Source of the DNA: Nostoc sp. RI_552
GTDB lineage: Bacteria > Cyanobacteriota > Cyanobacteriia > Cyanobacteriales > Nostocaceae
Assembly: GCA_016124525.1 (NCBI GenBank)
Contig: WGNO01000041.1
Span: forward strand, 1-64,000
Direction: 5' to 3'
DNA: 64,000 bases
The notes beneath the pieces are model-generated. The model made no database searches and was not told the DNA's origin. It saw nothing but the letters and a program-made list of their open reading frames with translations. Every line of letters begins with the position of its first letter. Within the stretch, counting starts at the first letter, position 1. Shown here piece by piece: positions 27,693-37,136 of this stretch. A program made the translations under genes and the position numbers.

Positions 27693-27910
27693 ACGTAATT
27701 ACTCTATGTCAAACTAGTAAGTAGTATAATATATAAGTGATTAATAGATGTATAAAAAATAATGCAGTTTATTATTGAGATAATTTAAGCCGCACCATAT
27801 TATTGCTGAGAGATCCGTACCCGGGTGAAAAACAGAAGAGATTTCGGTATTCATGCCCATCTTCTATAATTGATGGGATAACTTGCATATATAATCTTAG
27901 GCATGAGACT

Positions 27911-30900
27911 GTGACAGAACCTGGAAGCTACAAAGATACGGTAAACCTACCCAAAACTAAATTCGATATGCGGGCAAACGCCATCAAGCGGGAACCGGAA
28001 ATTCAACAGTTCTGGGCAGAAAATAATATTTACGATCGCCTGTCGCAAAATAACCCCGGCGAATTATTTATACTCCATGATGGACCTCCCTACGCTAACG
28101 GTTCATTGCACATTGGTCATGCCTTAAATAAAATTCTCAAAGATATTATTAACCGCTACCAACTGCTACGAGGGCGTAAAGTTAGATACGTCCCAGGATG
28201 GGATTGTCACGGTTTACCCATTGAGTTAAAAGTTCTGCAAGATATGAAATCAGCAGAACGGCAAAGTTTAACACCTTTGACACTACGGCAAAAAGCCAAG
28301 GAGTTTGCCTTAGCTACCGTAGATGACCAACGGGAATGTTTCAAACGCTACGGCGTTTGGGGTGATTGGGATGATCCTTACCTGACTTTGAAGCCGGAAT
28401 ATGAAGCGGCACAAATTGGTGTGTTCGGTCAGATGGTCTTAAAAGGATACATCTATCGGGGTTTAAAGCCTGTTCACTGGAGCCCTAGTTCTAAAACTGC
28501 TCTAGCTGAGGCGGAGTTGGAATACCCAGAAGGTCATGTTTCCCGCAGTATCTATGCAGCTTTTCCGGTAACAGGTCTGTCTGAGGCGGCTAAACCTGTT
28601 TTGGGTGAATTTTTACCTCATTTGTCTGTGGCTGTTTGGACTACGACCCCTTGGACTATTCCGGGTAATTTAGCTGTGGCGGTAAATGGTGATTTGAGTT
28701 ATGCTGTGGTTTCTACCAAGCAAGAATTTACGCATCAGGAAGTTGAACGTAGAGCAAGAGAAATATGGGAAACAAAAGGCAGACCTCAACAAGATAAATT
28801 TGGTCAAGATGCTGACTATATTCAAGCTTTACATGAATTTGAAAGACAAGTAAAACGAAAGCAAATTCCCAAATATCTTATCGTAGCCGCAGATTTAGTA
28901 CAAAGTCTGTCAGCCACCCTTTCCACTCGGCTCACGGTGAAGGCTACCTTTAAGGGGCAAGATTTAGAACATACTACTTATCGTCATCCTCTGTTTGACC
29001 GGGAAAGTCCCGTGGTGGTGGGTGGTGATTATATTACCACTGAGTCCGGTACTGGGTTAGTACATACTGCCCCCGGTCATGGTCAAGAAGACTACATTGT
29101 GGGTCAGCGTTACGGTTTGCCAATCCTCGCGCCAGTAGATGACAACGGCAATTTTACCCCAGAGGCGGGTGCTTTTGCTGGTTTAAATGTTTTGGGTGAT
29201 GGAAATCAGGCGGTAATTGACGCGTTGACGGCTGCTGGTTCTTTGTTGAAGGAGGAACCCTACGCTCACAAATACCCCTATGATTGGCGGACAAAAAAAC
29301 CCACAATTTTCCGAGCGACTGAACAATGGTTCGCTTCGGTGGCTGGATTTAGGGAGGAAGCTTTAAAGGCCATCGCTGGGGTAAAATGGATTCCAGCCCA
29401 AGGGGAAAATCGCATTACGCCCATGGTAGCAGAACGTTCTGATTGGTGTATTTCTCGTCAGCGTTGTTGGGGTGTACCCATTCCGGTTTTCTACGATGAA
29501 GCTACTGGAGAAGCACTGCTGAATGAAGAAACCATCAACCATGTCCAAGCAATTATCGCCGCAAAAGGTTCCGATGCTTGGTGGGGAATGTCAGTGGAGG
29601 AGTTATTACCAGAGTCTTACCGTCATAATGGCAAGTCTTACCGCAAAGGTACAGACACAATGGATGTATGGTTTGATTCTGGTTCATCTTGGGCGGCTGT
29701 AGTGAAACAGCGTCCAGAATTACGCTACCCGCCTGATATGTATTTGGAAGGTTCCGACCAACATCGGGGTTGGTTCCAGTCAAGTTTGCTCACCAGCGTA
29801 GCAGTAAATGGCATTGCACCTTATAAAACTGTCTTAACTCACGGCTTTGTTTTAGATGAACAAGGGCGGAAGATGAGTAAATCTGTAGGAAACGTGGTCA
29901 ACCCCCAAGTGGTCATTAATGGCGGGAAAGACCAGAAAAAAGAACCCCCCTATGGTGCTGATGTGCTGCGGCTATGGGCTTCGTCGGTAGATTATTCTGC
30001 TGATGTGCGTCTAGGTGGTAACATCATCAAGCAAATGAATGATGTTAGAGGTAAAATTCGCAATACAGCGCGGTTCTTATTGGGTAGCTTGCATGATTTT
30101 GACCCGGAACAGGATGCAATACCCCTGGAAAATTTACCAGAACTTGACCGCTATATGCTCCACCGCATCGCTGAGGTGTTTGCAGAAGTTACCGCAGCTT
30201 TTGAAAGTTTCCAATTCTTCCGCTTTTTCCAAACTGTGCTGAATTTCTGCGTAGTGGATTTATCCAACTTTTATTTAGATGTTGCTAAAGATAGATTGTA
30301 CATCAGCGCCCCGGATGCTTTTCGCCGTCGCAGTTGTCAAACAGTGCTTAAGATAGCTTTGGAGAATTTAGCACGAGCGATGGCACCTGTGTTATGTCAT
30401 ACTGCTGAGGATATCTGGCAATTTATCCCTTACCAAACACCATATAAATCAGTGTTTGAAGCTGGTTGGGTGCAGGTAGATGAAAAATGGCGTAATTCTC
30501 AATTAGCGGAGTTTTGGCAACAAGTGCGGAAACTTCGGGATGATGTTAATAAGGTGTTAGAACAAGCCAGGGTAGAGAAAAAGATTGGTTCTTCCCTAGA
30601 AGCTAAAATCTTGCTTTATATCAAGGATGAGCATTTGCTTTATGCGGTGAAAAAACTAAATCCTGATATTGGTAATGGTATTGATGAACTGCGCTATCTA
30701 TTCCTCACTTCTCAAGTGGAACTATTACATTCTCCCGAAGCATTGCAAGGTTCGAAATATAACTTGCAGTTAGATAGCTGGGGAATTGCAGTAGTTGATG
30801 CAGAGGGTCAAAAGTGCGATCGCTGTTGGAATTATTCTACTCATGTGGGAGAATCAGTAGAGCATCCCCTATTGTGTGAACGTTGCGTTCCAGCTTTGGC

Positions 30901-30913
30901 GGGGGAGTTTTAA
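27911..30913 (+). CDS. ileS: isoleucyl-tRNA synthetase with an extra inserted domain
   Basis: A 1000-residue class I synthetase. I choose the GTG at 27911 because the product then begins TEPGSYKDTVNLPKTKFDM, as in cyanobacterial IleRS; an upstream in-frame start at 27803 would add 36 unrelated residues. HIGH-type PYANGSLHIGHA, the KMSKS loop GRKMSKS and the C-terminal zinc pairs CDRC and CERC are intact. Inside the CP1 editing domain, at about residues 270-316, there is a charged helical insert (VERRAREIWETKGRP, QALHEFERQ) resembling DUF2934. Flanking editing residues continue normally (YLIVAADLVQSLS). It charges tRNA-Ile with isoleucine in the cytoplasm. Confidence 0.96.
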   Translation: MTEPGSYKDTVNLPKTKFDMRANAIKREPEIQQFWAENNIYDRLSQNNPGELFILHDGPPYANGSLHIGHALNKILKDIINRYQLLRGRKVRYVPGWDCHGLPIELKVLQDMKSAERQSLTPLTLRQKAKEFALATVDDQRECFKRYGVWGDWDDPYLTLKPEYEAAQIGVFGQMVLKGYIYRGLKPVHWSPSSKTALAEAELEYPEGHVSRSIYAAFPVTGLSEAAKPVLGEFLPHLSVAVWTTTPWTIPGNLAVAVNGDLSYAVVSTKQEFTHQEVERRAREIWETKGRPQQDKFGQDADYIQALHEFERQVKRKQIPKYLIVAADLVQSLSATLSTRLTVKATFKGQDLEHTTYRHPLFDRESPVVVGGDYITTESGTGLVHTAPGHGQEDYIVGQRYGLPILAPVDDNGNFTPEAGAFAGLNVLGDGNQAVIDALTAAGSLLKEEPYAHKYPYDWRTKKPTIFRATEQWFASVAGFREEALKAIAGVKWIPAQGENRITPMVAERSDWCISRQRCWGVPIPVFYDEATGEALLNEETINHVQAIIAAKGSDAWWGMSVEELLPESYRHNGKSYRKGTDTMDVWFDSGSSWAAVVKQRPELRYPPDMYLEGSDQHRGWFQSSLLTSVAVNGIAPYKTVLTHGFVLDEQGRKMSKSVGNVVNPQVVINGGKDQKKEPPYGADVLRLWASSVDYSADVRLGGNIIKQMNDVRGKIRNTARFLLGSLHDFDPEQDAIPLENLPELDRYMLHRIAEVFAEVTAAFESFQFFRFFQTVLNFCVVDLSNFYLDVAKDRLYISAPDAFRRRSCQTVLKIALENLARAMAPVLCHTAEDIWQFIPYQTPYKSVFEAGWVQVDEKWRNSQLAEFWQQVRKLRDDVNKVLEQARVEKKIGSSLEAKILLYIKDEHLLYAVKKLNPDIGNGIDELRYLFLTSQVELLHSPEALQGSKYNLQLDSWGIAVVDAEGQKCDRCWNYSTHVGESVEHPLLCERCVPALAGEF

Positions 30914-30942: not shown

Positions 30943-31010
30943 GTCATTGCGAGTAGAAAGAGGTAATCCCAAGGATTGTGGGATTACTTCACTTCCTTTG
31001 CAAGGGCAAC
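30943..31010. repeat. GTCATTGCGAG-type palindromic repeat after ileS
   Basis: GTAATCCCA (30963-30971) pairs with TGGGATTAC (30979-30987); the flanks start with GTCATTGCGAG. Repeats with this opening are dispersed in bacterial spacers. It lies between the convergent ileS and parA genes and could stop transcription from both sides. Confidence 0.55.
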
Positions 31011-31053
31011 TATTAAATCCGACACAAATTATATGCGTCCGGAAGTTTTGTTG

Positions 31054-31938
31054 CTACAACTTCTGCAACAGCTCCTGAGTTAACTGAGAAAATGCTTTAG
31101 AACCCGATGATTGAGGTGCATTCAACACAACCGGCGTAAAACTATCAACAGCCTTAGCCACATTTATATCAACTGGTATTTGTGCCTTACAAATTTTCTC
31201 TACACCAAAATCTTCCACAACACGGTGCATCACTTGTTTATAATATCGCCCATTGAGCAAATTAGAACTAGCCATGCTAAAAACAATTCCCAGCATTTTG
31301 ATCTCTATCTTAGCTTCCTGTTCGTGAGCATCTTTTAATTGACCAATGCGTCTTTCTAATAGCTGAATACCCACCACAGATAAAGGTTCTGGTTTAGCAG
31401 GAAGAATGTAGAAATCACTGGCAGCCAAAGCACTGCGAGTCAATAAATTATAGCCAGGGGCACAATCTAAAAGAATGAAGTCATACTCCTCGCGCACTGG
31501 GTTTAAAATATTATTAATCAACACTCTTTCAAAACGATTCCAAACCGTTTCAAAATCCTGCTCGCCCAAAGCAGTTGCTTGTTGGTGGAGCATCTCTGAC
31601 ACCACAAATTCATCATATAAATCAATATCCCCGGGTAATAAATCTATGCCGGGGATATTGCAAACCTGACCTTGAATAATATCTTGAATCGTCAGTTTTG
31701 GTTTGGGTTCAGGATTGATAATTTGGTCTATTAAATATCTCAATGTCTTACGTTGTTTGCGAAGTTTAGCAAAAGCTAAAGGCGACATTAAACTCAGTGT
31801 AGCACTGATTTGGCTATCTAAATCCAGGACAAGCACGCGCTTACCGTGATTTTTGGCTAAACAAGTCGCTATATTGACAGTGAGGGTGGTTTTACCAACA
31901 CCGCCTTTCATATTTGCAGTAGCAATTACATATCCCAT
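31054..31938 (-). CDS. ParA family ATPase
   Basis: A 294-residue protein with an AGAGG site before ATG 31938. Deviant Walker A NMKGGVGKTT at residues 9-18, then LVLDLDSQ (Walker A') and FILLDCAPG (Walker B). These MinD/ParA ATPases dimerise with ATP, bind DNA or membrane without sequence specificity, and position plasmids, chromosomes or protein complexes. No ParB gene follows it. The N-terminus lacks the extra helix-turn-helix found in autoregulating ParA. It is divergent from a second, nuclease-fused ParA. Confidence 0.88.
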   Translation of the reverse strand: MGYVIATANMKGGVGKTTLTVNIATCLAKNHGKRVLVLDLDSQISATLSLMSPLAFAKLRKQRKTLRYLIDQIINPEPKPKLTIQDIIQGQVCNIPGIDLLPGDIDLYDEFVVSEMLHQQATALGEQDFETVWNRFERVLINNILNPVREEYDFILLDCAPGYNLLTRSALAASDFYILPAKPEPLSVVGIQLLERRIGQLKDAHEQEAKIEIKMLGIVFSMASSNLLNGRYYKQVMHRVVEDFGVEKICKAQIPVDINVAKAVDSFTPVVLNAPQSSGSKAFSQLTQELLQKL

Positions 31939-32357
31939 TGGTTAAGTCCTCTGATAGCGCATCCCCATATCTAGGTAGCGTACACTCCTATTCAATAATT
32001 AAAACTTCAATTAAGTGTAATCTTTTTGGAAACGTTAAAAATTAACGTTGTCCCTATTAGGGCAGTCAGATTATAACAGTGCCCAGGAGTGTTGAGATTT
32101 GTTTAGAGTATTTTTTAGTTCTTTTACCTCACCCAGAAGCCCAGAGGCGTGGATATATTACATCAAAACTGCTGCAATTTTAAGTTTTATTTAACAAGAT
32201 TATCATATGTTTATTTTTTCGTAAAAAAACTAAACATATTTTTATGGATATACATATAATGTAAGTAATTTTTATAACACAGATAACTAAGCATGTGCCA
32301 TACTCAAATAAGTATGAAGTTATTTCCATGATTTTAACTTTATTGGAGTAAAAAATT
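31939..32357. promoter_or_regulatory. divergent control region between two ParA genes
   Basis: AACGTTAA (32031-32038) and TTAACGTT (32042-32049) form a perfect 8-bp inverted repeat with an AAA centre. Two bases on, CCCTA (32052-32056) and TAGGG (32058-32062) form a second palindrome. Position between divergent partition-type genes suggests an operator or parS-like centromere. That role is inferred only. Confidence 0.5.
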
Positions 32358-33740
32358 TTGCTTTTTAATCCTGAACTGTGTCGTAACGAAAGTGAAGTTG
32401 AAAGCAAACTCATAGTTCAGTATTTGTTGCCGCAACTAGGGTATACTCCCGATACGTGGCATCAAGAAGTTGCCCTTGGTAGCATTCGTTTAGATTTTTT
32501 AGCATTTGCAAAACAAATTATTCCGTTGGTTTTAGATGCTAATTCGCCGATGAGTGTTGTCATGGAAGCAAAGCATCCAAAGCAAAATTTAAATAATCAT
32601 GTCCTCAGACTCAGACATTATTTAACAAGCTTGAATGCGCGATATGGGTTGCTGACCAATGGTAAGGAAATCAGGATTTATGAAAAGTTGGAATATGATA
32701 TTGAACTAGTCTTTCAGTGTTTGGGAAAGGATGTCGAGGAAAAAATAGAAGAAATTAAAGGTTTAATCGGTAGAGATATTCTCACCACAAGCCAAATCAT
32801 AGCTAATTCAAAAATTCATATCACTCAAACTCATTCAACTACTGACAATAAGAGGGAAAATTCCATGAAAACAATTGCAATCTACCATCATAAAGGCGGT
32901 GTAGGTAAAACAACCATCGCTGTTAACTTAGCAGCTGGATTGAGGAAAAAAGGTAAAAAAGTTTTGTTAATTGATATAGACGCTCAAGCCAATACAACTT
33001 TTGCTACAGGACTAGTCAAATTTCAATTTGAAGAGGATGATGACTTAAAAGATCGTAATGTATATCATTTATTAGAAAAAACTGATAATAACTTTATACC
33101 AGATATTATTCGCAAATCTAAATTTTTTAATGATCCAGAAATTGATGTTATTCCTTCGCATATTACCTTAGTTTCACTTCAATCTAACCTAGTCAAGTAT
33201 GGAGCCAGCAGGAGTAGATTAGCTAGAAAGTTGGATAAAGTAAAAGATCAATATGATGTTGTAATTATTGATACACCTCCATCGCTTGATCTATATGCAG
33301 AAGCTGCTTTAACGGCTGCTGATTACCTGATAATTCCTTCAGATTTAAAACCATTTTCCAACCAAGGCTTGCCCAGTGTCCAAAACTTTATTAAACAAGA
33401 AATTAATGAAAATAAAGAAGGTTTGGGAAAACCACCTCTGATCATTATGGGTGTTCTTCCGTCTAAAATTTCAACTAATGTTCAATATTTAAAACACAAC
33501 TTTTTAAAGCAAAAAAGTTTAATTAATGATCGTTATAAACTGCCGCTTATGGATAGTATTATTTCTGAGAGAACAGCTTTATCTACTTGTATCAATAGGA
33601 CTATACTTGTAGGAGATTTGGAAATTCCTGATCCTAAGTCCATTCTAGATTTTGCTAAGTTTGAATCTTCGGCAAACCTCGCTGCTGCTGAATTTGAATC
33701 TTTAGTTATGGAAGTTATGAAAAAAATGGAGTTAAAATAA
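32358..33740 (+). CDS. restriction-like (HSDR_N, PD-(D/E)XK) domain fused to ParA ATPase
   Basis: A 460-residue fusion. TTG start at 32358 with GGAG at 32345-32348. Residues 8-115 match the N-terminus of type I restriction R subunits: Glu15, Asp46 (IRLDFLAF), Glu70 and Lys72 (VMEAKHP) form a PD-(D/E)XK set, and GLLTNGKEIRIYE is the usual distal block. Residues 170-460 are a full ParA: HHKGGVGKTT, LIDIDAQANTT, VVIIDTPPS. Codon 170 is an ATG (32865) preceded by AGAGGG, so a separate ParA could be made. It overlaps the next gene by one base (TAATG). I know of no named system with this layout. Confidence 0.82.
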   Translation: MLFNPELCRNESEVESKLIVQYLLPQLGYTPDTWHQEVALGSIRLDFLAFAKQIIPLVLDANSPMSVVMEAKHPKQNLNNHVLRLRHYLTSLNARYGLLTNGKEIRIYEKLEYDIELVFQCLGKDVEEKIEEIKGLIGRDILTTSQIIANSKIHITQTHSTTDNKRENSMKTIAIYHHKGGVGKTTIAVNLAAGLRKKGKKVLLIDIDAQANTTFATGLVKFQFEEDDDLKDRNVYHLLEKTDNNFIPDIIRKSKFFNDPEIDVIPSHITLVSLQSNLVKYGASRSRLARKLDKVKDQYDVVIIDTPPSLDLYAEAALTAADYLIIPSDLKPFSNQGLPSVQNFIKQEINENKEGLGKPPLIIMGVLPSKISTNVQYLKHNFLKQKSLINDRYKLPLMDSIISERTALSTCINRTILVGDLEIPDPKSILDFAKFESSANLAAAEFESLVMEVMKKMELK

Positions 33741-34450
33741 TGACTGATTTTTTGATGGTAGATGTTGCTAGTGTTAATTCAAGTATCCCTCGTTCAAATT
33801 TCCATGAAGCTGATTTAGATATTCTTGCTGATAAAATATTAGAGTCTGGAGGTATTCTCAAGCCGTTAGTTTTAAAAAAGATTGGTTTTGAAAAATACGA
33901 ATTACTTGATGGACATTTTGAATACTATGCTGCTGTCAGAGCTAGAGAAAAAAATCCAGACGAAGGTGAAATGGTCAATGCCTTTATTATCCCTTCTGAA
34001 AAAGAAGAAGCAGTCTTAAAGCAAGCAACGATTTTAAGTAGTTTAAATTCTTCTGATAAGTCAGTATCTCCCATACCTGAAAGGAGTAGTTCAGACTCAT
34101 CACGGCTGACAAATTTGGAGTTACGCATTGAAAAGCAATTCAATGAGTTTAAGTCACAGCTAATACAAGAAAGACAAATAACAGATGAAAAATTTAAGCG
34201 ACTTGAAAGCAAAATTCCAGAAAATAGTGAAGAAAATAATCCACTCAAATCATTAAATACTTTGCCTGAAGACGCTCTTTTTAAAAAGTTACAACGTTCT
34301 AGAATTAGTAAAGCTGAAAAACTTGCCAAAGCTATAGTAGAGGCTAGACTAAAAAAAACTAACCAAAAATTTGAGGATTATAGGGATGTCAAAAAATCTG
34401 TTAAAGGTTTAGGTGAACAAGGTATTTTAACTATTGTTGATGAATGGTAA
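33740..34450 (+). CDS. ParB-like partner protein
   Basis: A 236-residue protein whose ATG shares its A with the TAA of the ParA fusion, indicating coupled translation. Residues 5-90 resemble a ParB/sulfiredoxin N-terminal domain: FHEADLDILADKI, GGILKPLVL, and LLDGHFEYYAAVRA in place of the classical GERR box. Residues 120-165 form a charged coiled coil (LELRIEKQFNEFKSQL). The C-terminal 60 residues include a helix-hairpin-helix-like end (KSVKGLGEQGIL). No clear HTH is visible, so it may use DNA-bound partners rather than a standard parS. It probably stimulates the ATPase next door. Confidence 0.65.
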   Translation: MTDFLMVDVASVNSSIPRSNFHEADLDILADKILESGGILKPLVLKKIGFEKYELLDGHFEYYAAVRAREKNPDEGEMVNAFIIPSEKEEAVLKQATILSSLNSSDKSVSPIPERSSSDSSRLTNLELRIEKQFNEFKSQLIQERQITDEKFKRLESKIPENSEENNPLKSLNTLPEDALFKKLQRSRISKAEKLAKAIVEARLKKTNQKFEDYRDVKKSVKGLGEQGILTIVDEW

Positions 34451-34535
34451 ATAATAAAATAATATCTTTCACTAAATACCGTAAAACTTTTTAAAAATCC
34501 ATTTGCACTCTTTCTTTGCGCCTTTGCATGAAACA

Positions 34536-35483
34536 TCACCCCTTAACTTGGCGCAACAAATTAATAACCCGACCCCGTAACCCAACAGGTAAAAAAGACA
34601 AACCCAAACCAATCAAAGTCTTAGCAGTAGAAAAAGACCGCCCCGCCAAAACCAGTTCCCTTCCCTTTTGGGTTTCACCTTTTTCAATCAAACGCAACCC
34701 CAATAACAATTGCGATTCAGCTAGGCGATATTGCCTAACTTGTTCCAACTTATCTATATCAAACTGATAACTTTCCAAATACCGAACCTTATCAAACAAA
34801 TAAGGAATTGCTCTATTCATACCTTGCTGTTCTGCATGGGAACGATATTCCATTAATAATTCCGGTATATAATAACCCTTTTTATCAGCCAAAGCCAGCC
34901 GGACAAATAAATCATTATCTTCACAATTTTGAATATTCGGTAGCATAAACCCCAACTCTTGCAAAGTCTGACGACGAAATAAAGTCGCCCCAATTTGAAA
35001 GCTTTGGTTAATAAAAACCACCTCTAACAAATTATCCACTACGCCTGGTTTTAAATTAGCTCGACCCCAACGACGAGAATTTTCTTGAGTCTTTTTCTCA
35101 TCCCGGATATTTTCAATATCAATTATCCAATGGTCAGTACCAACAAAATCAATTCTAGAATCTTGATCAAGTATTCCCGCAGTCCGGGCTAAAAAATTAG
35201 TTGTTAGCCTATCATCATCATCAAACTTGATAAAATATTCACCTTGGGCTGCATCAAAACCAGAGCGCATATTATTACTTTTACCAATATTTTGCCAATG
35301 ACGGATATATTTAATTTTATTGTCTGTGTACTGTGACATCAATTCAGGAGTACCATCAGTTGAACCATCATCACAAACAATTAATTCAAAATCTTGATAA
35401 GATTGCTGAAGTACGCTTTCTATGGCGTATGGTAGGAGATTTTGCCGATTAAATGTAGGAATGCAAACGCTAATTTTAGCCAC
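34536..35483 (-). CDS. glycosyltransferase family 2
   Basis: A 315-residue protein with GTG start at 35483. It has the GT-A opening SVCIPTFNRQNLL, then VCDDGSTDGT, and the metal-binding DDDD in IKFDDDDRLT. Such inverting transferases add a sugar from a nucleotide donor to polysaccharide or lipid acceptors at the cytoplasmic membrane. No transmembrane segment is obvious. It ends 85 bases from the convergent ParB-like gene and lies divergent from a family 4 transferase, suggesting a small cell-surface or polysaccharide cluster. Confidence 0.9.
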   Translation of the reverse strand: MAKISVCIPTFNRQNLLPYAIESVLQQSYQDFELIVCDDGSTDGTPELMSQYTDNKIKYIRHWQNIGKSNNMRSGFDAAQGEYFIKFDDDDRLTTNFLARTAGILDQDSRIDFVGTDHWIIDIENIRDEKKTQENSRRWGRANLKPGVVDNLLEVVFINQSFQIGATLFRRQTLQELGFMLPNIQNCEDNDLFVRLALADKKGYYIPELLMEYRSHAEQQGMNRAIPYLFDKVRYLESYQFDIDKLEQVRQYRLAESQLLLGLRLIEKGETQKGRELVLAGRSFSTAKTLIGLGLSFLPVGLRGRVINLLRQVKG

Positions 35484-35918
35484 AGCTATTAGTTTGAGAT
35501 CAAGTTACAACTTCACTAGAACCAGAGTTTTAAGATTAGTTCTGAGGATTGTTCATATATCATACAAGATGAATTCATTACCAGCTGACAGAATAAGTGA
35601 TAATATTTATTTATCCTTAATTATCAGTAAAAGCAACAATTTATCTGTGAATATACAGAAACTTCATGATGTTTGTCGAAAATTTATTGTTCAGCTTTTG
35701 GTTGACCCTCAGTTATAAAAATCCTAAGACCTTCACCCTCAGCACCCGGACTTCTTCAATAATTCCGGGATATTTATGTTGCTAACTTATTTACAATTGC
35801 CATATTAAAACTTGAGGAAAAATAGATAAGAGATATTTATCATGACATCAAGGCTGAAATCAGAGCATGGTGTATATGTCATCATTTGATTTAGTCTAAT
35901 TTACCCTGAATTGCTGAT
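35484..35918. other. divergent spacer with a CCCGGA hairpin repeat
   Basis: CCCGGA (35745-35750) pairs with TCCGGG (35764-35769) around a CTTCTTC loop, a short palindrome of a type that recurs in cyanobacterial genomes. Otherwise AT-rich, with no supported gene. Confidence 0.4.
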
Positions 35919-37136
35919 ATGCACATCTTAATGCTGTCTTCTACCTTTCCCTATCCGCCAACAAGGGGGGGAACTCAAGTGAGGACATTTAACTTACTCA
36001 AATATTTAAGTCAACGTCACACTATCACCCTCGTAACTCAACGGGATGACGACGTTACGGAAATAGAAATCGTCAGCCTACGGGACTGGGTAGATCATCT
36101 AGTTGTATTTGAACGTCCTCCAGATTCTGGAACCCCATCGGGAATACTCCAGAAAATACAACGATTAAGTCAGTTTTTGCAACAGGGAACCCCACCCAGC
36201 GTACTCAGCCGCTACTCAGTTGAAATGCAAGCATGGATTGATAACTTTGTCGAGGAGCAAAAGTGTGATGTGATTACCTGTGAACATAGCGTTAATGAAA
36301 TTTATGTGCGATGGCATTTTCAGAAATCTCTCAGAACCATAGTCAATATTCACAGTTCCGTCTATGGTACTTGTCTGAACCAGCTAACAACAGGTGTCTC
36401 CGAAAATAAGCTCCGAGATAGGATTATTCTACCACTTTTACGTCGTTATGAACAAAGATATGGCGCAAAATTTTCGGCAATAGTAGTAACTACAGAAAAT
36501 GATAAAAGTCAACTAGAAAAACTTCATCCTCACGGTGAAATTACAGTTATTCCCAATGGAGTTGATTTAGACACATTCCCCCATCGTACTACCGACCCCG
36601 GAGGATACAAATTAGTTTTTATTGGAGCGATGGATAACTTAGCAAACATTGATGCTGTCTGCTTTTTCGCCAATGAAATTTTACCACAAATTCAAAAACA
36701 TTATCCTCAAACAACCTTTGATATTGTTGGTTCTCGCCCTGGTCCCGAAGTTTTAGCACTCAAACAACAACCAGGAATTAATGTCACTGGAAGAGTGCCT
36801 TCAATGGTAGACTATTTACACAAATCAACAGTCTGCGTTGTGCCCATGCGGACAGGATTTGGAATTAAAAATAAAACCTTGGAAGCAATGGCCGCCGGTG
36901 TACCAGTAGTAGCCAGCGATCGCGGTTTAGAAGGACTAGCCACAGATACTTCAACACCAGCATTACGCGCCAATGAACCTGCTGAATATGTCACTGCTAT
37001 TAGTCAACTTTTTGATGATCCACAACTGCGTCATCAAATATCACATAACGGTAGAAAACTTGTAGAAACCCAATTCACCTGGGCCATGGCTGGAAAACAT
37101 TATGAGCAAGTTTGTGTCGGACTCAATAATCACTAA
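35919..37136 (+). CDS. glycosyltransferase, GT-B fold (group 1/4 type)
   Basis: A 405-residue protein. It opens SSTFPYPPTRGGTQVRTFNL, with the glycine-rich donor-side loop of GT-B enzymes. The second half has VIPNGVDLDTFP, then GFGIKNKTLEAMAAGVPVV, the Glu-containing donor-binding motif of group 1 transferases. It is probably retaining, with a nucleotide-sugar donor; the sugar and acceptor are unknown. Relatives often occur in exopolysaccharide clusters, in line with the GT2 gene across the spacer. A hairpin follows its stop. Confidence 0.9.
   Translation: MHILMLSSTFPYPPTRGGTQVRTFNLLKYLSQRHTITLVTQRDDDVTEIEIVSLRDWVDHLVVFERPPDSGTPSGILQKIQRLSQFLQQGTPPSVLSRYSVEMQAWIDNFVEEQKCDVITCEHSVNEIYVRWHFQKSLRTIVNIHSSVYGTCLNQLTTGVSENKLRDRIILPLLRRYEQRYGAKFSAIVVTTENDKSQLEKLHPHGEITVIPNGVDLDTFPHRTTDPGGYKLVFIGAMDNLANIDAVCFFANEILPQIQKHYPQTTFDIVGSRPGPEVLALKQQPGINVTGRVPSMVDYLHKSTVCVVPMRTGFGIKNKTLEAMAAGVPVVASDRGLEGLATDTSTPALRANEPAEYVTAISQLFDDPQLRHQISHNGRKLVETQFTWAMAGKHYEQVCVGLNNH

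Follow-up and report, generated by a model that had tools for sequence, protein, structure and literature searches.

What does a restriction-type nuclease do at the front of a ParA ATPase? The question is raised by two genes in a stretch of 64,000 nucleotides (nt) from Nostoc sp. RI_552 (contig WGNO01000041.1, positions 1 to 64,000; hereafter the window). ParA ATPases are positioners of DNA and other cargo. In the window, a fusion gene with a TTG start (32358..33740, + strand, 460 residues) encodes an HSDR_N-type PD-(D/E)XK domain, a linker and a complete ParA. Its stop codon overlaps by one base, in TAATG, with the ATG start of a second gene, open reading frame 2 (ORF2; 33740..34450, +, 236 residues), which encodes a ParB_N domain, a coiled coil and a helical, helix-hairpin-helix-like tail. 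An earlier note, made from the letters of the window, had described this anatomy and proposed a DNA-guarding or mobile-element system; the anatomy and the coupling of nuclease-ParA to a ParB-like protein are upheld, and the mobile element is not. We propose, with belief and doubt in about equal measure, that this chromosomal two-gene module would be a ParA-switched nuclease that guards against incoming DNA, phage first. If this is true, DNA cutting would have a new kind of switch, a ParA that bears a restriction-type nuclease and comes with its own nuclease-free isoform.

Residues 1-169 of the fusion contain a predicted PD-(D/E)XK nuclease domain, an assignment made because Pfam, invariant residues and predicted topology agree. 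Searched alone, these residues barely pass the cut-offs of HSDR_N (25.9 bits; cut-off 25.1) and HSDR_N_2 (25.7 bits; cut-off 25.0), and with the full-length fusion both families fall slightly under them. Relatives of the fusion are encoded in 130 stretches of genome contigs, of which the best 80 were kept as loci (loci and genomes are cited by L and G numbers); the alignment has 80 rows, the window and 79 of these loci, the frameshifted L103 having been dropped. D46, E70 and K72 are identical in all 80 rows, and E11, K17, Y88 and N101 are likewise invariant. In an AlphaFold2 model of the fusion (55 sequences, mean pLDDT 84.7), the nuclease part (approximately residues 8-142; 32379..32783, +) has a confidently modeled alpha-beta-beta-beta-alpha-beta core in the PD-(D/E)XK order (helix 11-27; strands 34-40, 43-50 and 65-71; helix 78-92; strand 96-100), with a loop of low confidence (54-63) ahead of strand 65-71. 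D46 is situated in strand 2 of the model, E70 in strand 3 and K72 just past strand 3. When the nuclease domain was searched by itself against PDB sequences, no match was significant (best E 0.061), and PADLOC mad2 and Cas4 match weakly in this part.

No superfamily 2 helicase domain is present in the fusion, the remainder outside HSDR_N being ParA by Pfam (AAA_31, 190 bits, E 4e-56). The ParA motifs, namely the deviant Walker A K179GGVGKTT186, D206, D208 and D305TPP308, are invariant in 55 sequences. Foldseek, which was run with whole models, returned ParA/MinD-type ATPases, including 6non/6nop, among the best 50 matches to the fusion. PADLOC-DB 2023 holds no curated system that matches the whole fusion; its PDC-M28B model (E 2.5e-10) covers residues 145-268, the ParA half.

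The ParB_N domain of ORF2 (residues 3-104; 33746..34051, +) is over the Pfam cut-off at E 3.2e-7, and ORF2 resembles Noc/ParB structures (best Foldseek E 3.3e-5; profile E 1.4e-8 to Noc 7ng0). The box II arginines of canonical ParB, of the GERRxRA type, serve the binding of cytidine triphosphate (CTP). At this position the window ORF2 has DGHFEYYAA, without these arginines, which bears out the odd box that had been pointed out before, and the coiled coil is predicted at residues 120-157 (34097..34210, +). The helical C-terminal tail (residues 163-235; 34226..34444, +) matches HHH_3 only at E 0.035. Among 44 ORF2 homologues, ParB_N is found in 41 (E <= 0.01), A30, G58, A68 and E70 are the only invariant columns, and the tails differ: HHH_6 (helix-hairpin-helix) in 9, Rho_N in 4, SAP in 3 and HHH_3 in 2, with the majority matching nothing. 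No helix-turn-helix (HTH) family of KorB/ParB is among the 25 families listed of the 26 matched by these proteins. By eye, ORF2 has no LG-R/K-GL motif, a ParA-binding peptide according to a survey of the ParB-CTPase fold (PMC12704722), and PADLOC-DB 2023 has no match to ORF2 at E <= 1.

These features bear on two partition readings. An ordinary ParABS partition locus would account for the adjoining ParA and ParB_N genes. In a cargo-positioning system, ParA would place DNA bound by ORF2 and HSDR_N would be merely a DNA-binding domain or scaffold; this would fit the ParA and ParB_N homology and the existence of versions of the module that have ParA only. However, the catalytic D46, E70 and K72 are invariant, ORF2 lacks the box II arginines, a matched HTH family and the ParA-binding motif, and no conserved parS-like palindrome was found near the pair in one simple scan of 350 nt upstream and 300 nt downstream of 80 loci, in which the best exact palindrome occurs in 7 loci only. 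A TGCCATAAT-like element that had been considered as a parS palindrome was rejected, as it is a non-palindromic upstream element. A TGCCATACT element lies about 60 nt 5' of the fusion gene (32296..32304, +), and a TGCCATAHY upstream element occurs in 33 of 78 homologous upstream regions, in 28 of these at 61-70 nt from the gene. An Rfam scan of 31000-36000 gave zero hits.

Plasmids weigh in the same direction. No plasmid record among the 5000 best-scoring of 72,556 spans 80% of the fusion, and plasmids gave no hit to ORF2 at E 1e-5; a plasmid partition locus was rejected on these grounds. The earlier note had itself named two findings that would overturn it, the lack of a nuclease fold and occurrence only as a plasmid partition locus, and neither turned up. 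HTH-type ParBs form a family separate from that of ORF2. They are present in 56 of the 100 genomes compared, namely that of the window and 99 relatives. The searches of these genomes for the pair and for the other cassettes described below scored only the best candidates per genome (e.g., <=16 for the fusion), and the presence lists of the pair, of these ParBs and of the exo-FtsK protein introduced below were compiled by hand. The window genome has no HTH-type ParB at E 1e-15. The pair was also considered as a simple substitute for a missing chromosomal ParABS, and this was rejected: some genomes lack both HTH-type ParB and the pair. We regard cargo positioning as very improbable and an ordinary ParABS locus, already disfavored, as improbable in the extreme.

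The guarding reading draws on a further property of the fusion gene, which probably yields two products, nuclease-ParA and ParA alone. The predicted second product (32865..33740, +, 291 residues) starts at an internal ATG, residue 170. Two products are predicted because this ATG is conserved and has a ribosome-binding site, and because the first start is usually TTG. An ATG is found at the first ParA residue in 80 of 80 rows; in the window it is preceded by the Shine-Dalgarno-like AAGAGGGA (32850..32857, +). A match of at least 4 nt to the Shine-Dalgarno consensus precedes the internal ATG in 61 of 80 rows, compared with 10% for the 329 other internal Met codons and 17% for 2160 positions in the linker. 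AGG lies 6-16 nt 5' of the internal ATG in 60 of 80 rows, against 17.1 +/- 3.4 expected (maximum 29) from 2000 trials of synonymous recoding with the same peptides and the genes' own codon usage; with one row per distinct peptide AGG is present in 49 of 68, against 14.9 +/- 3.1 expected. The rows are related, and the recoding leaves this relatedness in place. The AGG is spread over different codon frames (45, 13 and 2 rows), and therefore the peptide alone does not explain it. In 63 of the 69 rows that have the N-terminal motif, TTG is the first in-frame start codon met 5' of it; the 11 motif-less rows were left unscored.

Stand-alone ParA genes start at the position of the internal ATG. Such a gene is followed by an ORF2 relative in L113-L117 and L135-L137 among the loci listed, with ORF2 broken in L115. 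AGAGG is kept in two (L114 and L138) of the seven ParA-only genes whose upstream DNA was inspected; L138 has no visible ORF2. In a ParA tree, from which L142 was omitted and in which the helicase-ParA of L126 carried the label 'fusion', 8 changes of the fusion/ParA-only label are required and supported branches force 5 or more of them, suggesting that the nuclease part was lost repeatedly. In L126 itself (L126:5774-7345, -; G098), the C-terminal domain of an AAA_12 helicase stands in frame before ParA in place of the nuclease. Because the N-terminal part of the helicase is a separate upstream ORF, the join may have arisen by chance from a broken gene.

Fusion matches (E <= 1e-20) were found in 54 of the 100 genomes. 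By hand reading, 44 carry the nuclease-ParA pair, including some split, truncated or contig-cut copies (split or truncated pairs are seen, for instance, in L118, L119 and L139), and 5 carry ParA only. In the phylum as a whole, the fusion profile has matches at E <= 1e-60 in 59 of 386 genomes. The window genome has a single copy, its second match being only at chance level. Mapping of the pair across genomes, as the earlier note had suggested, showed an ORF2 relative directly 3' of the fusion in 77 of 80 loci, a few of these relatives (e.g., those of L064 and L082) being broken or shortened; in the other three (L049, L080 and L102) the fusion reaches the contig end or stops <=80 nt from it. Five of the 80 loci are in non-cyanobacterial records (L087, L090, L094, L095 and L099). 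Their fusions form one clade (support 98) nested in the cyanobacterial diversity of the ParA tree, which points to a transfer out of cyanobacteria. The fusion is matched by 225 phage records (E <= 1e-3), none over 80%, and in the ten listed the match is confined to the ParA part; one further phage record falls in the 60-80% identity band with the fusion. The 25 viral contigs examined likewise match in the ParA part only.

In the window, a slot is bounded on the left by ileS (27803..30913, +), with a stand-alone ParA termed ParA2 (31054..31938, -) at its left edge, and on the right by a GT2 glycosyltransferase (34536..35483, -) and a second glycosyltransferase termed GT4 (35919..37136, +). The pair has a GT2 relative next to it in 39 of 81 clustered loci and ParA2 within 9 kb in 27 of 80; in other lineages the pair is at unrelated loci, beside different genes. 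Several pairs adjoin an operon for an 861-residue exonuclease-PDDEXK_1-FtsK protein (exo-FtsK), a 679-residue AAA_16 protein and cl27, as exemplified by L118:1094-3676, L117:231-2267 and L117:2328-3194, respectively. We know of no name for this operon. The exo-FtsK protein matches PADLOC SspH (FtsK part, E 1e-69) and mad8. As judged from gene content and aligned flanks, the nuclease-ParA/ParB-like module and this nuclease-FtsK operon trade places in one slot.

The two machines avoid each other. Of the 100 genomes, 38 have the pair only, 40 exo-FtsK only, 6 both and 16 neither (Fisher p 6e-9; the Fisher tests ignore relatedness among genomes). The corresponding numbers are 24, 27, 4 and 5 in family f1 together with the window genome (p 6e-8), and 14, 13, 2 and 11 in other families (p 0.0095). 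Exo-FtsK was scored as present from its FtsK half, and the count takes in broken copies (G015 and G045) and a remnant (G058). Among the genomes counted as having both, the pair is split in G021, truncated in G037 and cut by the contig end in G044, and the matching protein of G097 is FtsK-only (688 residues; 55%, query 521-855), without adjoining AAA_16 or cl27. A second type of pair, type 2, is present in 6 of the 100 genomes and never together with the nuclease pair. Ten genomes have no cassette of any kind, including the complete or near-complete G066 and G099, and ParA2 was found in all ten.

Close relatives with similar surroundings carry different machines. L037 (pair) and L173 (exo operon) share blocks of 92-94% identity, between which L037 has a 2.6 kb pair in place of 5.3 kb of exo-FtsK/AAA_16/cl27, with 0.7 kb of exo-FtsK left (88%); their anchors further left are separated by other insertions. 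L097 (type 1) and L129 (type 2) have flanks that are 88-95% identical (92 and 94% in the adjoining blocks) around different cassettes; L129 retains about 50 nt that match the type-1 gene start and has no AAA_16. Between ileS-ParA2 and GT2-GT4, L185 holds the pair, a 186-residue exo remnant, AAA_16 and cl27. Within one genus, G006 has the exo operon and a type-3 pair, and G058 a type-2 pair and an exo remnant. ParA2 adjoins a long exo-FtsK in 10 of 16 regions (L173, L175, L176, L178-L180, L182, L183, L191 and L192), most of which also have ileS or glycosyltransferase genes as anchors. L174 has exo-FtsK with GT2-GT4 and without ParA2, and the exo-FtsK genes of L177, L181, L184, L189 and L190 lie elsewhere. 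In exo loci such as L192 and L180, ParA2 is situated just 3' on the same strand, resembling the last gene of the operon.

A tree of ParA2 was built from the 48 of 131 examined loci that have it within 9 kb, with truncated L119 and contig-cut L122 labeled 'pair' and L107 forming a long branch. The pair/exo label needs 11 changes; at supported branches, at least 9 changes of the exo label, and 10 of the pair label against all others, are forced, and the labels cluster no more than shuffled ones. The slot is a natural experiment, in which close relatives with 88-95% identical surroundings carry different machines. In L117, a ParD/ParE-like toxin-antitoxin pair was recognized by eye (L117:6426-7003), with a ParA-only module on one side and the GT2 anchor on the other.

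The layout of HSDR_N-ParA with a ParB_N-type partner, whose variable tail is of predicted DNA-binding type, is common to at least three families, as read from their sequences. The type-2 and type-3 partners examined carry ParB_N, which is weak in L131; the further family is HHH_3 in L133, and Rho_N in both L126 and L141. PDC-M28B hits only the ParA part of the type-2 and type-3 fusions. The type-3 pair, whose partner domains ParB_N and Rho_N were tested in L141, is at L141:3858-5884 (-), and a look-alike that adjoins the exo operon and GT2 is at L209:2408-4458 (+). At least four nuclease-ATPase cassettes, namely type-1, type-2 and type-3 pairs and the exo-FtsK operon, may take turns in the Nostocales slot.

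One place has been taken over repeatedly, and what is left of exo-FtsK, as remnants or parts, can lie next to the pair (L037, L047, L097, L129 and L185). This could also be the work of a selfish exchange cassette, either homing-like or addictive in the manner of a restriction system, whose nuclease would attack cells or alleles that lack the cassette and so displace the rival operon. We consider this unlikely. The breakpoints vary among takeovers and no fixed cut site was seen, no modification gene or antitoxin was recognized in the pair, and the pair is found at unrelated loci in other lineages.

A phage-borne version of the partner speaks to the guarding reading from another side. An IMG/VR cyanophage contig encodes a 101-residue protein (L143:5983-6288, +) that consists of the ParB_N domain of ORF2 alone and is 79% identical to the ORF2 of L075 from Chrysosporum bergii. 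The ratio of nonsynonymous to synonymous substitution rates between the two (dN/dS) is 0.20 (dS 0.56, 101 codons), and the phage domain is under purifying selection. AAAGAGGTAAG, 5' of its start, is a good ribosome-binding site, and a separate stretch coding for a coiled-coil-like peptide of about 60 residues follows the gene. Portal, head and amidase genes appear to surround it, as read from translations. Phage records contain no close copy of this ParB_N-only protein. In Anabaena phage A-4L, the 1717-residue 'tail protein' ORF27 (L169:4975-10128; 9k3a_B) has a ParB_N-like domain at about residues 1320-1410 (E 3.7e-9 to the ORF2 profile); as an 'internal protein' gene adjoins it, ORF27 may encode a protein of the virion or one that is ejected. 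Injected phage proteins are known to carry ParB-fold domains (PMC5512222). Because of this precedent and a pairwise identity of about 40%, the A-4L domain, once taken as a strong lead, was downgraded to a lead only. Plasmid pOSC7112.03 has a 66-residue ORF (L172:4995-5195) with 38% identity to the ParB_N-only protein of the phage (E 1e-3); it adjoins a gene for a peptidoglycan-binding protein, and a ParA gene is near.

The 'DNA-guarding' of the earlier note thereby gains indirect support, because the cassette is exchanged with another nuclease machine and a phage contig encodes a copy of the ParB_N domain of ORF2. Several observations weigh against it. G022 and G083 seemingly carry both machines intact, and pair and exo-FtsK are adjacent in L054 (= G022), L060 and L061. 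ParA-only versions persist without the nuclease. The clear domain copy is on one metagenomic phage contig only, and a second viral scan found the same contig. Some form of cassette, counting broken and ParA-only ones, is present in 90 of the 100 genomes, above what is usual for defense. Counts of HTH-type ParB, a rough proxy for plasmids, are not lower with the pair (mean 1.77 with it, n=44; 1.08 without, n=51; p 0.21; the 5 ParA-only genomes excluded). The neighbors are mostly housekeeping genes, and the check for defense-island neighbors that had been called for came out flat: with PADLOC (E <= 1e-8), the hits of 117 near genes and 90 far ones in 30 loci, one far gene (ParA-only, L054) having been excluded, are scattered and similar. 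Near hits are SspH 3, mad8 3, PD-T4-6 kinase models <=3, mad6 2 and MkoA 2 (25 of 41 families listed), SspH and mad8 being the models that exo-FtsK itself matches; far hits are ThsB 2, mad3 2, PD-T4-6 <=2, mad8 2, mad6 2 and single others (25 of 68 listed). With a chromosomal pair, mostly amid housekeeping genes and with no visible excess of known defense genes, the 'mobile-element system' is not supported.

Chromosome maintenance is the main rival. The pair would do the housekeeping job of exo-PDDEXK-FtsK, such as clearing, resecting or resolving chromosomal DNA, and would displace that operon non-orthologously beside ParA2. This would fit the presence of at least one machine in most genomes, a slot that lies amid housekeeping genes and next to a ParA2 kept in all cassette-free genomes, the FtsK motor of the alternative operon, and the survival of ParA-only versions, in which the ATPase pair may act without the nuclease. 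However, the ten genomes without any machine, the forced switches on one tree together with differing cassettes within a genus, which are fast for a core function, the broken copies of the pair and of exo-FtsK (decayed or transposon-split in L207 and L208), and the carriage of the partner domain by a phage all count against it, and we judge it rather unlikely, if a serious option. In L208 a transposon-like insertion (L208:3947-10962; recombinase-type ORFs by eye) splits exo-FtsK near residue 645.

If the module does guard against incoming DNA, it may work as follows. The weak TTG start would give little full-length nuclease-ParA, and the internal ATG with its ribosome-binding site more ParA alone. 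ParA would bind ATP, dimerize and sit on DNA, so that mixed dimers would carry few nuclease heads. The helical tail of ORF2, of helix-hairpin-helix or Rho_N type, may read DNA, a DNA end or a structure, and ORF2 would then trigger or gather the ATPase, bringing nuclease heads together for cutting. The pair would compete with the exo-PDDEXK-FtsK/AAA/cl27 operon for one slot, as interchangeable defense machines do, and phages may answer with a decoy built from ORF2's ParB_N domain, for which the protein of the L143 contig is a testable candidate inhibitor. In its fullest form the proposal is an immune-type, ParA-switched machine, in which the isoform ratio would set head encounters and the partner would license cutting, with at least four interchangeable cassettes and a phage decoy; this whole we offer tentatively, as a possibility that we would sooner doubt than accept. 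Literature searches, with subscription papers and bioRxiv mostly uncovered, found no description of an HSDR_N-ParA fusion in titles or abstract starts, no paper with both 'HSDR_N' and 'ParA' as whole words, and no immune-type machine driven by a ParA switch.

Among known systems, ParABS (Soj/Spo0J, Noc) resembles the pair in its intact ParA motifs and directly adjoining ParB_N-fold gene. The pair differs in the nuclease ahead of ParA, in its exchanging chromosomal slot, in an ORF2 that has an HHH- or Rho_N-type tail instead of a matched HTH family, GERRxRA-type box and LG-R/K-GL peptide; no parS was found near it in the one simple scan. McdAB, which positions carboxysomes, likewise joins a cyanobacterial ParA (6non/6nop among the fold matches) to a non-ParB partner, but has no nuclease; to our knowledge, McdB has no ParB_N fold. 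The N-terminal domain of type I HsdR (PF04313, PF13588) shares the PD-(D/E)XK set of D, E and K and a conserved Tyr with the fusion, whose motor is ParA instead of a helicase; no hsdM or hsdS was recognized beside it among the recurrent neighbors (25 of 104 Pfam families listed). The DdrB-like ParB domains of phage 'polyvalent' proteins are phage-borne ParB/Srx folds, some in virion proteins, and are reported without a ParA partner in the part of PMC5512222 that is accessible, whereas the L143 domain is close to the N-terminus of a host ORF2. In the 2025 survey of the ParB-CTPase fold, as far as its accessible text goes, only the DUF3850 fusion is consistently encoded with parA (PMC12704722). 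It is a non-canonical ParB-fold protein like ORF2, but is prophage-enriched and has a PUA-like domain, and neither a nuclease-ParA fusion nor 'HSDR' occurs in that text. The exo-PDDEXK-FtsK operon has an FtsK translocase instead of ParA and no visible sequence kinship with the pair; it too combines a nuclease, an ATPase and accessory proteins, in the same slot and in mutual avoidance.

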